DNA from: Sphaerobacter thermophilus DSM 20745
GTDB taxonomy: Bacteria > Chloroflexota > Chloroflexia > Thermomicrobiales > Thermomicrobiaceae
Assembly (NCBI RefSeq): GCF_000024985.1
Contig: NC_013524.1
Location: 1 to 64,000, forward strand
DNA: 64,000 nt
Direction of reading: 5' to 3'
Below, piece by piece: positions 10,978-32,083 of this stretch. The notes beneath the pieces were generated by a model. The model was not told the origin of the DNA. It ran no database searches and worked only from the letters and a program-made list of their open reading frames with translations. Numbering within the stretch: position 1 is the first letter of the stretch; every line of letters begins with the position of its first letter. The position numbers and the translations under genes were made by a program.

Positions 10978-11082
10978 TGAGTGAACTTGCTGTTGGGTGA
11001 TACGAGGGGCTTCATTGAAGCGGTGCTAGTCTGAGCGACTACTGTGCTTCGGTTCCGTGCTCTATCCCGCCGCACTGTCGCG

Positions 11083-11088
11083 TACAAT
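11083..11088 (+). promoter_or_regulatory. Possible -10 element (TACAAT) of the fdh operon
   Basis: TACAAT stands about 125 bases before the fdh start. No convincing -35 is present. The same TACAAT/TACAGT word precedes several other genes in the window. Confidence 0.3.
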
Positions 11089-11213
11089 GTCCGCGTCGGC
11101 GCGGCACACGGACTGCGGGGCATTCCCCCGACAGTGATCCGCCGCCCCGTCTTCAGCACCATCGGCGTTGGCCAGCGCCAACCTTCGGGTGGGATGCGCG
11201 CAGGGAGGGACTC

Positions 11214-14200
11214 ATGGGCATCGGTGGCCGGCTCAAGAACTACGTCGGGATGGTTCCCAACCCGATCAGTTCGAAGACGCGCCAGGTCGGCTCGCGCATC
11301 CGCGGCGCCGACGTGACCGTCAGCGTCTGCCCCTACTGCGCCGTCGGATGCTCTCAGCTCGTGTACGCCAAGGATGGGCGCATCATCGACATCGAGGGCA
11401 ACTACGAGAGCCCCATCAACGGCGGCACGTTGTGCCCTAAGGGCGCGGCGACCTACGGCCTGGTTTACAGCCCGAACCGGATTACCAAAGTCAAGTACCG
11501 GGCGCCGTACAGCGATCACTGGGAGGAACGCCCGCTCGACTGGGCCATGGAGCGCATCGCCCAGCTCGTCAAGCAGACGCGCGACGCGACCTACCAGGAG
11601 ACCGACGAGCACGGCACCGTCGTGAATCGCACCCTCGGCATCGGCCACCTCGGCGGTGCGACCCTCGACAATGAAGAGAACTACCTGATCAAGAAGCTCT
11701 TCGCGGGCGGGCTCGGGATCGTCCCGATCGAGAACCAGGCGCGGATATGACACTCCAGCACGGTGCCCGGTCTGGGCGCCCGACTCGGTCGCGGAGGCGC
11801 GACGACGACGCTGCAGAGCCTGGCGGACAGCGACTGCATCGTCATCATGGGCTCAAACATGGCGGAGAACCACCCGGTCGGCTTCCGCTTTGTCGTGAGA
11901 GCCAAGACCCGGGGGGCGACGGTGATCCACGTCGATCCGCGGTTCTCGCGCACATCCGCGCTGGCGGACCTCTATGTGCCGTTGCGGGCCGGCACGGATC
12001 TCGCCGTGCTCGGCGGGCTGATCAACTACGTCATCAACAGCGAGCGCTGGAATACCGACCCGTTCTTCAAGGAGTACGTGACGCACTATACCAACGCGTC
12101 GGTCATCATCAACCCGGAATACCAGGGGCCGGAGGATCTCGGCGGCATCTTCTCCGGGTACATCCCCGAGGAGCGACGGTACGAGACCGACACCTGGCAA
12201 TACGCGGGACAGGATGAGCGGCCTGCCGCGTCCGAGGACAAGGCGCAGACGGCCGAGCCGCGGCCGGAGTACATCGGGCGCCTCGACGAGCCGGTCCGCC
12301 GCGACCCGACGCTACAGGACCCGAACTGCGTCTTCCAGATCGTCAAGCGCCACTACGCGCGCTACACGCCGGAGATGGTGGAGCGGATCAGCGGCATCCC
12401 GCAGGACGTCTTCATCCGTCTGGCGGAGACGATCCTTGAGAACTCTGGGCGCGACCGGACCACGGCCTTCTGCTACGCGGTCGCCTGGACCCAGCACACG
12501 AACGGGACGCAGACCATTGGCGCGTGCGCGCTGCTGCAGCTACTGCTCGGCAACATCGGCCGGCCAGGGGGCGGCATCCTGGCCCTGCGCGGGCATGCAA
12601 CGATTCAGGGGAGCACCGACATCCCGACGCTCTACAACCTCCTGCCCGGTTATCTGCCGATGCCGATGGCGACCGCGCTGGAGCGGGACGAAAGCCTCGA
12701 CGCGTACCTGCGCCGCAACCGGCCCATGACCGGCGCCTGGTACAACACGCCCGCCTACCTGGTCAGCCTGCTCAAGGCCTGGTACGGCGACGCGGCGACG
12801 CCCGAGAACGACTTCTGCTACGACCTGGTGCCGAAGATCGGCGGCGACGCATCGTTCCAGGCCATGATCCCGATGATGAAGGACGGGATCATGAAGGGGC
12901 TGTTCGTCATGGGCATGAACCCGGCCGTGGGTGGGCAGAACGCCATCCTGGCCCGGGAGGGGCTGGCGAACCTCGACTGGCTGGTCGTCCGCGACGTGCA
13001 CGAGATCGAGACGGCCGCCTTCTGGTGGGACGCGCCGGAGGTCCGCGCGGGCAAGGTGCGCCCGCAGGATATCAAGACCGAGGTCTTCTTGCTCCCGGCC
13101 GCGCTGCCCGGGGAGAAGGAGGGATCCTTCACCAACACCCAGCGGCTGGTGCAGTGGCACGACAAGGCGATTGATCCACCGGACGACGTGCGCTCCGAGG
13201 TCTGGTTTGTCTACCACCTGGGCCGCCGCTTGAAAGAGCTGTATCAGGGGGACGATACGCCGAAGGGCCGGCAGATCGCCGCGCTTACCTGGGAGTATCC
13301 CACGGAAGGGCCGCACGACGAGCCGGTGGTCGAGGCGATCGTCAGGGAGATCAACGGCTACACCGTGGCTGACGGGCGCCTGGTGCCGGACTACACCGCG
13401 CTGCGGGACGACGGCTCGACGGCGTGCGGCTGCTGGATCTACTCCGGCATCATGCCGGAGGAGGGCCGCAACCGGGCGAAGGACCGCCGCGGCGACGAGC
13501 GCGCGTCGCTGGAGTGGGGCTACTCATGGCCGCGCAACGTGCGCCTGCTCTACAACCGTGCCTCGGCGGACCCGCAGGGCCGCCCCTGGAGCGAGCGCAA
13601 GAAGTGGATCTGGTGGGACGAAGAGGCCGGCCGCTGGACCGGCTACGACGTACCCGACTTCCCGGTCACCAAGCCGCCGGACTACACGCCCCCGCCGGGG
13701 GCGGTCGGGCTCGATGCCCATCCCGGGGATGCGCCCTTCGTCAACATGGCCGATGGCCGGGGCTGGCTCTTCGCGGCCTCCGGGCTGCGGGACGGTCCGC
13801 TGCCGACACACTACGAGCCGTGGGAGACGCCGGTCGGCAACCCGCTCTATCCGGAGCACCCGCGCAGCCCGGCCGCCAACCTGCTGGAGCGCCCGGACAA
13901 CCGCTACCATGAGATCGGCGATCCGCGCTTCCCGTACGTCATCACGACCTACCGCCTGACCGAGCACCACACCGCGGGCGGCATGTCGCGCTTCGTGCCC
14001 TGGCTGGCCGAGTTGCAGCCACACGGGTTCGTCGAGATCAGTCCTGAGCTGGCGGAGGAACTGGGGATCAACAACGGCGACTGGGTCGTGATCTCGACCC
14101 TCCGGGGCGAGACGGAGAGCCGGGCGCTGGTCACCGAGCGCCTGCAGCCGCTGGTGATCAACGGCAAGAAGATCCACCAGGTGGGCATGCCCTGGCACTT

Positions 14201-14354
14201 CGGCTACAGTGGCATCGCCAAGGGCGGCATCGCGAATGACCTCAGCGCGCTGGTCGAGGACCCGAACTCGCGTATCCACGAGGCGAAGGCGTTCACCTGC
14301 AATCTCCGTAAGGGCCGGCTGACGCGCAGCACCGACGAGGAGGGGCGCGGATGA
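11214..14354 (+). CDS. fdhA: Formate dehydrogenase alpha subunit, selenoprotein (UGA read as Sec179)
   Basis: Molybdenum/tungsten bis-MGD formate dehydrogenase catalytic subunit, 1046 residues when the in-frame TGA at 11748-11750 is read as selenocysteine. The [4Fe-4S] ligands are C39, C42, C46 and C74. The codon sits in NQARI-U-HSST, matching the NQARV-U-H of E. coli FDH-N, and the frame continues through GRGGATTTL, SNMAENHPVGF and the molybdopterin-binding C-terminal domain. A SECIS hairpin follows at the canonical distance. No twin-arginine signal is present at the N-terminus, unlike periplasmic FDH-N, so a cytoplasmic-side orientation or a missed upstream signal must be considered. The ATG has GGGAGGG upstream. 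The stop overlaps the beta-subunit start by four bases. Automatic callers would split this into two genes at the TGA. Confidence 0.93.
11762..11780 (+). promoter_or_regulatory. Bacterial SECIS element in fdhA mRNA
   Basis: GGTGCCC (11762-11768) pairs with GGGCGCC (11774-11780), presenting the loop GGTCT (11769-11773). The loop sequence and its distance, 18 bases after the UGA, are identical to those of E. coli fdhF, so SelB recognition is very likely. Confidence 0.88.
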
Positions 14355-28004: not shown

Positions 28005-28472
28005 TCAGTCGCTGAGCTGGTCGAGGTGGGTGAGGAGGTCATCGACGGTGGGGATGTCGCGCATCGAACGGCCGTCGTGGCGGAAGCGGATCACCCCGGC
28101 GGGTTCGACGATGAGCACCGCCGGCATGCGGCCGAAACGGAGCAAGCGGACCTGCTGGCCGTAACGCCTGGCTACCGCGTGGCCGGGGTCGGTCAGGCCG
28201 GGGAAGGGGATGTGCTCCCGCTCCCAATAGGTGCGCACGGCATCCGGGCGGTCTGGAGCGATGGCGAGGATCTCAGCGCCGCGCTCTTGGAACTGCTGAT
28301 AGTTGTCGCGCAACTGCGCGAGCTGCCGGCGGCAGTGTGGTCAAAGCAGCCCGCGTAGGAACACCAGCACGACGGGGCCGCGCTGGAGCACCTCAGAGAG
28401 GCGGATATCCCGCCCGTGCGTGTCGCGCAGCGTGAAATCCGGCGCAGTCGTCGGGTGTTCGGGACGGATCAC
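28005..28472 (-). CDS. Selenocysteine peroxiredoxin-like (AhpC/TSA) protein, UGA at codon 44
   Basis: Read through the TGA at 28343-28341, this frame gives a 155-residue thioredoxin-fold protein of the AhpC/TSA peroxiredoxin-like family: HPTTAPDFTLRDTHGRDI, VVLVFLRGLL-U44-PHC47-RRQLAQL, then GAEILAIAPD, PFPGLTDP and PAVLIVEPAGVIRF. Sec replaces the first cysteine of the family's CPxC active site. The GTG start overlaps the stop of the upstream alpha/beta hydrolase gene (GTGA) with AGAGGAGC before it, so coupling fixes the start. A hairpin with an AGTT loop lies 26 bases after the UGA. It probably reduces peroxides or disulfides in the cytosol. Default gene callers would give only a headless fragment from 28313, losing the active site. 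Confidence 0.85.
28306..28321 (-). promoter_or_regulatory. Candidate SECIS hairpin in the peroxiredoxin mRNA
   Basis: On the minus strand TCGCGC (28321-28316) pairs with GCGCGA (28311-28306) around AGTT, 26 bases after the UGA and within the range known for bacterial SECIS. A second small hairpin CTGCC-GCC-GGCAG (28335-28323) lies closer. The fit is weaker than for fdhA. Confidence 0.5.
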
Positions 28473-29467
28473 AACGTGCTCCTCTCGCTCGCGCGCTGTT
28501 CGATATGGTCCAGGAAATCCTCGATGAACTCGACGAAGTCCTCCGGCTTCTCTTCCTGGGGCAGGTGCCCCGTGTGTTCCATGAACACGAACATGAACAG
28601 GTCGGGTACGGCGGTCATCCGGAGCACCTGGCGCGGGTTCACGATGCGGTCGTACATACCGAAGATCGCCATGAACGGGACCTGGAGCTCTCCGAACCGG
28701 TCCAGCAGGCCCAGCGGTCGGGTGGCGCGGAGGGCGCAGGCGAGTGCCGCATCCCAGCCATCTACCTGGAGCGCCGTCAGGTACCCCTTGATGAGATCGT
28801 CGGTCACGACGGCGCGGTCATAGACGGCGTAGCGCAGGATGTACGCTGCCCGCGACGCGGCGGATTGGGCGACGCGGGGGAGCACCCGGTCCAGGCCGGG
28901 TGCACGCACGAGCAGGGCCAGCGAGCGGCGCAGGGACGGTGGATCCAGCGCGGGCGTGACGAGGACCAACCCGCTGACCCGTTCGGGGTACTTCAGCGCC
29001 GCGAGCATGGCGATGCGGGCGCCCGCGGAGTGCCCGACGAGCACGGCGCGGGCGATCCCGAGGCGGTCAAGCAACGCGATGGTGAGGTCGGCCTGGACCT
29101 CGGGGTCGTACGGGTTGCCACGCGGCCAGGCGTCCGGGGCGGGCCGTGCGGTCAGGCCGTAGCCGGGGAGATCGAAGGCCACCACGGTGCCGCGGCGCGC
29201 TAGCGGCGGCAGCACCCGGCGCCAGATGAACGCGCCGGCCGCGAAGCCGTGGATCAGCACCACGGCCGGGTCACCCTGGCCTGCGAGCTTGGCGTGGACC
29301 CGGAGCCCGTCGACATCGATGAAGACGCTGTCGTCGTCCGCCAGCGCCTCCGGCGGGAGGAGCGTGCGGGGCGGGGCCGGATCGGCGCGGCGGCGGGCCA
29401 CAGTCATGAGCGCCACCGGCGCCGCAGCGCCGAGCGCGAGCGCGGCAAGCCGGTACCGTCGCTGCAT
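28469..29467 (-). CDS. Alpha/beta hydrolase, membrane-anchored or exported
   Basis: A 332-residue alpha/beta-hydrolase fold protein. The N-terminal hydrophobic segment (LAALALGAAAPVALMTVA, preceded by RR) is a probable anchor. The oxyanion stretch is VVLIHGFAAGAFIWRRVLPPLA, the nucleophile elbow is GHSAG (near residue 147), and the C-terminal His lies in MEHTGHLPQEEKPEDF. The lid and acid region follow ALRATRPLGLL. Its stop overlaps the start of the Sec peroxiredoxin (GTGA), so both are made from one mRNA, perhaps together handling oxidised or haloperoxidase-type substrates; this is inference. Substrate is not identifiable. Confidence 0.87.
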   Translation of the reverse strand: MQRRYRLAALALGAAAPVALMTVARRRADPAPPRTLLPPEALADDDSVFIDVDGLRVHAKLAGQGDPAVVLIHGFAAGAFIWRRVLPPLARRGTVVAFDLPGYGLTARPAPDAWPRGNPYDPEVQADLTIALLDRLGIARAVLVGHSAGARIAMLAALKYPERVSGLVLVTPALDPPSLRRSLALLVRAPGLDRVLPRVAQSAASRAAYILRYAVYDRAVVTDDLIKGYLTALQVDGWDAALACALRATRPLGLLDRFGELQVPFMAIFGMYDRIVNPRQVLRMTAVPDLFMFVFMEHTGHLPQEEKPEDFVEFIEDFLDHIEQRASERSTL

Positions 29468-30899: not shown

Positions 30900-31015
30900 A
30901 GTCGCAACTACCGCGATCGAGGGGCGGTTGTCGCACCAGCGCGCTTCCCGGCGACCGCAGCCGGGTGGCGCGCTGTACACCTTCGGCCCCCGGCCACAAG
31001 GAAGGGACGGCGTCC

Positions 31016-32083
31016 ATGGCTACGCCCGGTGCTCCCTCCCCGACGCCGACCGGTCAAACCCCCGCGGTTTCTGATGTCCACATCCTCTGGACCTCCGAGG
31101 GCATGAGTTGCGATGGCGACACGGTCTCGATCACGGCCGCCACGCAGCCGAGCCTCGAGGATGTGTTGCTCGGCGTCATTCCCGGTCTCCCGCGCGTGCA
31201 CCTGCACAACAAGGTACTTGCCTACGAGACGGGTGAGGCCTTCCTCGAAGCGTTCCATCAGGCGGCGCGTGGCGAGTTGGAGCCCTTCATCCTGGTCGTC
31301 GAGGGCTCCATCCCCAACGAGGAGATCAACGGCGACGGCTACTGGACCTCGATGGGCAACGACCCGGCCACTGGTGAGCCGATCACTCTCAACACCTGGC
31401 TCGATCGCCTGGCGCCGCGCGCCTGGGCCGTGGTCGCCATCGGCACCTGCGCCACCTACGGCGGGATCCACGCCATGGCGGGCAACCCCACCGGCTGCAT
31501 GGGCCTGGCCGACTACCTCGGCTGGGACTTCCGCTCGCGGGCGGGCATCCCGATCGTGAACGTGCCCGGCTGCCCGGTGCAGCCCGACAACTTCATGGAG
31601 ACGCTCCTCTGGCTGCTGTACCAGGCTGCGGGGCAGGCACCGATGATCCCGCTCGACGACAAGCTCCGGCCGACCTGGCTCTTCGGCAAGACGGTCCATG
31701 AGGGGTGCGACCGGGGCGGCTACTACGAACAGGGCGACTTCGCGCTCGACTACAACTCGCCCAAGTGCCAGGTCAAGGTCGGCTGCTGGGGCCCGGTCGT
31801 AAACTGCAATGTCCCCAAGCGGGGGTGGATGGCCGGCATCGGCGGCTGCCCCAACGTAGGCGGCATCTGTATCGCCTGCACCATGCCGGGCTTCCCCGAC
31901 AAGTTCATGCCGTTTATGGATGAGCCGCCCGGCGGCGTCCTCTCGACTGCGCTGAGCGGCACCTACGGCACCGTCATCCGCCGCCTGCGCAGCATCACAA
32001 ACGACACCGTCAACAAGGAGCCGCAGTGGCGACGCCGGGGACCCGCGCTCACTAGCGGGTACAACCCGACCTGGCCACGCTAG
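31016..32083 (+). CDS. hhyS: Group 1h-type [NiFe] hydrogenase small subunit
   Basis: FeS subunit of 355 residues of the high-affinity, oxygen-insensitive [NiFe] hydrogenase group (1h, formerly group 5). The first cluster motif is GMSC32-D-G-D35, where Asp replaces the usual second cysteine, as in the Ralstonia and actinobacterial group 1h enzymes whose proximal cluster has three Cys and one Asp. Further ligands lie in GTCATYGG, NVPGCPVQPDN, HEGCDRGGYYEQG, CWGPVVNC and GGCPNVGGICIACTMPGFPD. There is no Tat signal, as known for this group. The ATG at 31016 follows AAGGAAGGG. It lets the cell scavenge trace H2, as shown for Thermomicrobium. Confidence 0.95.
   Translation: MATPGAPSPTPTGQTPAVSDVHILWTSEGMSCDGDTVSITAATQPSLEDVLLGVIPGLPRVHLHNKVLAYETGEAFLEAFHQAARGELEPFILVVEGSIPNEEINGDGYWTSMGNDPATGEPITLNTWLDRLAPRAWAVVAIGTCATYGGIHAMAGNPTGCMGLADYLGWDFRSRAGIPIVNVPGCPVQPDNFMETLLWLLYQAAGQAPMIPLDDKLRPTWLFGKTVHEGCDRGGYYEQGDFALDYNSPKCQVKVGCWGPVVNCNVPKRGWMAGIGGCPNVGGICIACTMPGFPDKFMPFMDEPPGGVLSTALSGTYGTVIRRLRSITNDTVNKEPQWRRRGPALTSGYNPTWPR

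Follow-up and report, generated by a model that had tools for sequence, protein, structure and literature searches.

The window analysed here comprises the first 64,000 nucleotides of the second contig (NC_013524.1) of Sphaerobacter thermophilus DSM 20745, whose genome of 3,993,764 bases consists of two contigs (2,741,033 and 1,252,731 bases). The earlier note on this DNA had placed a hidden selenoprotein gene at coordinates that proved correct, though it left the strand, which is minus, unstated. From GTG 28472 the frame runs through an in-frame TGA and, with that codon read as selenocysteine (Sec, U44), on to a terminal TGA, giving 155 residues (Table 1). The proposal that the frame is intact on either side of the TGA was borne out by this single reading and by a match to PF00578 (AhpC-TSA) across the UGA (residues 9-130, E 1.4e-29, 103 bits against a cut-off of 26). 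Coupling of the GTG start to the upstream gene also held, with an overlap of 4 nt (GTGA) between the start and the stop of an alpha/beta hydrolase gene and an AGGAG ahead. Under the standard code the same frame becomes a 43-residue ORF and a 102-residue ORF starting at TTG 28313, downstream of the active site.

Table 1. Features of the peroxiredoxin-like (Prx-like) gene, its surroundings and fdhA in the window
Feature	Position	Strand	Basis
Putative Prx-like selenoprotein gene (155 residues + stop), UPHC motif	28005..28472	minus	PF00578
Predicted Sec codon UGA (U44)	28341..28343	minus	UGA column shared by 16/16 family orthologues; Cys in CxxC homologues
Putative SECIS apical hairpin, 25 nt past UGA	28305..28322	minus	6-bp core 28306-28321, loop AGUU 28312-28315; covariation, held-out model, bSECIS limits
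Codon of Cys47, partner of U44, peroxidatic-Cys column of peroxiredoxins	28332..28334	minus	Invariant in alignment A3; alignment to 2cx3 and 3c71
Codon of Pro117	28122..28124	minus	Aligned with P of the RLPDTFIVD stretch in thioredoxin-family 3hdc; Arg in true peroxiredoxins
Terminal stop TGA	28005..28007	minus	End of Sec-read frame
AGGAG, ribosome-binding-site-like, ahead of GTG start	28479..28483	minus	Read from sequence
Upstream alpha/beta hydrolase	28469..29467	minus	PF00561; stop overlaps selenoprotein start by 4 nt
Sec UGA of formate dehydrogenase alpha subunit (fdhA)	11748..11750	plus	Motif ARI-U-HSSTV

With the window hydrolase as tblastn query (E 1e-5), 8 of 16 loci from the same family (L023, L024, L029, L031-L035) had a hydrolase no more than 1.5 kb from the orthologue, and the same search found none at the remaining 8; in Thermomicrobium roseum a hydrolase is annotated beside the selenoprotein gene. 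As the pairing is not constant, a functional link between the two genes was set aside and no function was drawn from the neighbour. At a distance of about 2.5 kb from this locus, the window encodes the small subunit of a NiFe-hydrogenase (30965-32083, plus strand).

The genome possesses the machinery for Sec. The earlier note had made its reading depend on selA, selB and selC, and all three were present above cut-off: selA (527 bits, above the curated cut-off), selB (358.7 bits, cut-off 242) and selC, encoding tRNA-Sec (74.1 bits, gathering 47). selD also exceeded its curated cut-off and has one in-frame TGA (L017, G000:C1:928852-929787; motif CAG-U-ASK), with a hairpin that differs again from the others. 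Within the window, fdhA (11019-14351, plus strand) contains a Sec UGA as previously noted, and its hairpin has a GGUCU loop, unlike that of the Prx-like gene. Outside the window, a second AhpC/TSA protein with an in-frame UGA (L097, G000:C2:1241475-1241891) has Sec at column 47; its motif SSG-U and an Arg at the peroxiredoxin Arg column indicate that it is apparently a true peroxiredoxin-type selenoprotein.

Standard annotation tends to split the gene in two. The expectation that gene callers would lose the active site was realized in T. roseum, though the loss from a start at TTG 28313 is 53 residues and not the 44 first given; a caller that chooses the upstream ORF keeps only 43 residues. 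In the T. roseum record (NC_011961.1) a single CDS is listed at this locus, a hypothetical protein of 42 residues whose end coincides with the Sec UGA, and no CDS follows before 546023 in the PLSDB gene table, which can be incomplete. The window protein fell short of the cut-off of every NCBIfam model, the best match being that for a SelL-related redox protein (NF040769; 78.7 against 120).

Conservation of the UGA codon and its hairpin

We searched 61 genomes with the window protein, 21 of which belong to the same family. An orthologue was found in 16 of these 21, and in all 16 the UGA occupies the same column, down to 39% identity, and is the sole stop inside the protein (an extra TAA in G016 and a second TGA in G009 are natural protein ends). 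The five family genomes without an orthologue are 54-84% complete, and every family genome at least 85% complete (15/15) has both the gene and selB; in G014 (81% complete) the gene was present and selB was not found. T. roseum also carries the UGA-containing gene. The orthologue clade is all Sec, with support of 97/98, and no Cys orthologue was found within the Thermomicrobia clade. The nearest named relative found was a Sphaerobacter metagenome-assembled genome, at 84% identity to the window protein. For three pairs within the genus, dN/dS before and after the UGA was 0.32/0.38, 0.26/0.42 and 0.31/0.47, that is, below 1 on both sides (0.26-0.32 before, 0.38-0.47 after). The stretch separating the UGA from the next possible start, residues 45-53, contains P45, C47 and L51, all invariant in the protein alignment (A3). 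L035 was left out of that alignment, as its stretch ran beyond a TAA stop, L053 was excluded from the counts as a copy of L024, and one of two copies of equal score was used for G002.

T. roseum and all 16 family orthologues have a hairpin 25 nt after the UGA, with an AGUU loop that becomes GGUU in L027 and L030. In the family alignment 96.2% of cells were paired, three of the seven pairs showed compensatory, two-sided changes, and the covariation score exceeded those of 500/500 shuffles and all slid controls. Since the hairpin lies within coding sequence, part of its conservation reflects protein constraint. In L029, L037 and L049, however, a stem change that gives Ala, Thr or Ser on one side is matched on the other by a third-position change that leaves the Arg codon synonymous (CGC/CGU/CGA), so protein constraint alone is insufficient to account for the covariation. 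We also trained a model with the genus left out, on the other 13 orthologues only, so that the window sequence was held out. This model scored the window site at 51.3 bits (E 4e-14 across 142,484 bases), and the runner-up in the window reached 7.5 bits. It recovered the UGA site in 12/12 other U44 loci at 10.4-43.1 bits, of which the weakest was not significant, found no site in L097, and weakly matched the Cys codon in 2 of 11 non-Sec loci (L085 and L086; 13.8 and 10.7 bits). A genome search with model R1, meant to reveal other genes bearing this SECIS, returned 28 matches, of which we inspected seven (L055-L058, L060-L062). One was the gene itself, the best of the others (C2:793439, 25.5 bits) has UGC at its start instead of UGA, and the other five appeared chance-like.

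Limits given for bSECIS elements in the available text of a recent review are a loop of 3-9 nt, a stem of 4-16 bp, a G in loop positions 1-2, a distance of 16-37 nt from the UGA and a minimum free energy of at most -7.5 (PMC13188914). In our own simple implementation of these limits, which is not bSECISearch, the window hairpin falls within them (AGUU loop, 6 bp, 25 nt, -9.4 kcal/mol), as do 27 of 30 Sec rows versus none of 14 non-Sec rows; the three Sec rows outside the limits as coded were L083, L087 and L092. The codon for Leu54 was UUG in all 23 U44 rows with Leu54 and in none of the five non-Sec rows with Leu54, and L097 also uses it; across seven ORFs from the window, the share of UUG among Leu codons is about 5%. 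Folded singly, the window hairpin did not stand out, with z of -0.84 to -2.00 and an equally good fold in 17% of synonymous recodings. Rfam gave no matches at gathering across the whole window, and its SECIS families gave none at the UGA site even at E 10; these nulls are uninformative because the fdhA SECIS itself scores only 23.4 against a gathering threshold of 63. The case for a SECIS element here is a comparative one.

Active site and wider relatives

Among wider homologues, the U44 column holds a Cys codon (TGC/TGT) in L042, L043, L048, L084, L085, L086 and L089, and Cys in the distant rows L098-L100, whereas true peroxiredoxins (L046, L051, L052, L054) have Thr or Ser. The claim that the TGA stands at the first active-site Cys of the family was therefore right for CxxC relatives, whose first Cys it matches, but the peroxidatic-Cys column is that of C47, and U44 replaces the Thr/Ser of peroxiredoxins. 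UGA occurs at this column in further subfamilies of the order and class (L039, L040, L041, L044, L045, L047, L049, L050, L083, L087, L092, L094). Two Prx-like loci from another family of the order (L047 and L049, family f2) carry UPTU, with two UGAs 9 nt apart, followed at 25 and 16 nt respectively by a single AGUU hairpin, so that both Sec codons may be served by the same SECIS; UxxU is among the motifs listed in reviews, in the text available (PMC13188914). Another Prx-like subfamily of about 230-250 residues (L039, L040, L041, L044) carries UPYC, and its AGUU hairpin lies 16 nt from the UGA, versus 25 nt, in a different codon register.

An AlphaFold2 model built from three rows (mean pLDDT 85.6) was closest by VIA-align to AhpE and other peroxiredoxins (Z 21.0), with ResA at Z 19.1. 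Ranked by Foldseek E-value, ResA-type oxidoreductases, including a ResA variant with CPHC, were at the top for the same predicted model. The motif of typical peroxiredoxins, PxxxT/SxxC, is absent, with R40 in place of Pro and U44 in place of Thr/Ser, as is their catalytic Arg, the Arg column of TxxC homologues being occupied by Pro117. R40 was found in 28/28 and P117 in 26/28 U44 rows, whereas all four TxxC/SxxC rows have P40 and R117. UxxC thus replaces TxxC/TxxU, with U44-P-H-C47 aligned to the Thr and Cys columns. The peroxidatic Cys of 2cx3 falls in the C47 column, and the pair U44/C47 aligns to 3c71 and P117 to 3hdc, as in ResA/thioredoxin-like proteins, a correspondence of sequence position. 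The aligned Pro of 3hdc we take to be the thioredoxin-type cis-Pro. The description 'peroxiredoxin-like' accordingly fits the fold (PF00578, AhpE) better than it does the chemistry. As judged from these alignments, the active site is thioredoxin-like rather than peroxiredoxin-type. Selenol:disulfide oxidoreductase chemistry on a peroxiredoxin scaffold is the function that we favour, with some reserve.

Interpretation and relation to known selenoproteins

The best overall explanation, to which we assign a probability of about 85%, is an intact Sec gene whose product combines a peroxiredoxin-type body with a thioredoxin-type site and selenol chemistry. SelB and Sec-tRNA would decode UGA 28343-28341 as Sec, directed by the hairpin at 28322-28305 (loop AGUU) 25 nt downstream. 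The product would have a U44-P-H-C47 site and Pro117 at the thioredoxin cis-Pro position on its peroxiredoxin-type body. We postulate that the U44 selenolate would attack an oxidized substrate, either a protein or low-molecular disulfide or possibly a hydroperoxide, and that C47 would then resolve the intermediate to a U44-C47 selenenylsulfide, which would be re-reduced by one of the cell's thiol systems, for instance thioredoxin. As no signal peptide or anchor was seen in the window protein by eye, its location is probably cytoplasmic.

Decoding of the UGA as Sec is close to certain on the comparative evidence, and two alternatives to it carry little weight. If the locus were a pseudogene, a sequencing error or a true stop, only the 43-residue fragment or the 102-residue protein from TTG 28313 would be made, and the Table 11 ORFs do end or begin there, just as the T. 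roseum record has only the N-terminal piece. This is nonetheless very improbable given a UGA in 16/16 orthologues, purifying selection on both sides, the conserved residues 45-53 and a hairpin that covaries. Reading of the UGA as Trp or by a near-cognate tRNA is less probable still; readthrough alone would also preserve the frame, and nothing specific was found in its favour, whereas CxxC homologues have Cys and never Trp at the column in the rows examined, selA/B/C/D are present, and the SECIS-type hairpin that follows the UGA is missing, judged by identical criteria, from 14/14 non-Sec homologues. The central claim of the earlier note, a hidden selenoprotein, was thus upheld by the selA/B/C/D genes, the Sec/Cys column, the conserved and covarying SECIS and the UGA shared by the orthologues, and the selenoprotein gene is real and conserved, and very probably functional.

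The main rival to the disulfide oxidoreductase reading concerns chemistry and accepts Sec decoding: a true peroxidase, in which hydroperoxides would be reduced by C47 or U44, with resolution by its partner. PF00578, the nearest folds (AhpE/Bcp, with AhpE at Z 21.0 vs ResA at 19.1) and the alignment of C47 with the peroxidatic Cys of 2cx3 all speak for it. We consider it unlikely, as R40 and U44 break the PxxxT/SxxC signature and Pro117 stands where the catalytic Arg would be, while TxxC/SxxC relatives retain P40 and R117 in 4/4 rows.

The disulfide oxidoreductase reading places the gene among selenoproteins already described. UxxC Prx-like selenoproteins have been in the literature since 2005 (PMC1088965), and the available text of a review lists Prx-like thiol:disulfide oxidoreductases as predicted with high confidence and not verified (PMC13188914; for context see also PMC1794560, PMC12013277 and PMC4607533). 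The Prx-like UxxC/UxxU selenoproteins, known as the Sargasso Sea 'Prx-like protein' and 'Prx-like 1' of the GOS data, share with the window gene PF00578, UxxC rather than TxxU, a bacterial SECIS and Cys homologues (PMC1088965, PMC2398784, PMC13188914), a likeness drawn from the accessible descriptions and not sequence to sequence. The window gene belongs to this published UxxC kind of Prx-like thiol:disulfide oxidoreductase and is no new system, and a small selenium-containing redox enzyme of known kind is almost certainly encoded. In the parts of the Prx-like selenoprotein literature that were available we found no description of the Thermomicrobia clade, the UP[HYV]C motif or the AGUU/GGUU loop. 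Nor was a published description of the window gene found in open-licence literature without supplements, although the Prx-like entry in a 2016 survey table (28 / 32) may include it (PMC5029168). Blastococcus saxobsidens has a likewise AhpC-type selenoprotein, which uses UAG rather than UGA for Sec, and a figure legend in the available text names S. thermophilus D1CAV3 among the aligned proteins, which may be the window gene, L097 or a third gene (PMC5330540).

Other families are more distant. ResA/TlpA proteins have a CxxC that aligns with U44/C47, and they include the top Foldseek matches, the CPHC variant among them, but the window protein has Sec for Cys, lacks a signal peptide or anchor by eye, and scores 55.9 bits against a cut-off of 170 for ResA (NF002854). 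The 1-Cys peroxiredoxin AhpE and Bcp/PrxQ are closest by VIA-align Z (21.0) and share the AhpC-TSA domain, yet the window protein retains none of their catalytic Pro, Thr and Arg. The best NCBIfam match, NF040769, covers residues 9-105 at its below-cut-off score; L050 passes that cut-off, and together with L092 it forms the sister branch in the tree. Eukaryotic SelL carries UxxU, whereas the window gene has UxxC.

A further possibility, to which we give a little less than an even chance, is that Thermomicrobia hold an obligate-Sec subfamily with its own SECIS dialect (AGUU/GGUU loops and a fixed, rare UUG), in which the peroxiredoxin body now serves as a selenol:disulfide oxidoreductase, remodelled around a DsbA-like UPHC site. 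With no NCBIfam model reaching its cut-off, public annotations would systematically miss such a subfamily. The analysis recovers a gene with its active site where annotation splits it, in a thermophilic lineage for which we found little selenoprotein literature. The 16-genome alignment and the covarying hairpin could seed an NCBIfam or Rfam model and so correct annotation across these genomes. The linked changes from Thr to Sec, Pro to Arg and Arg to Pro make the choice between peroxidase and disulfide reductase testable with one purified enzyme.
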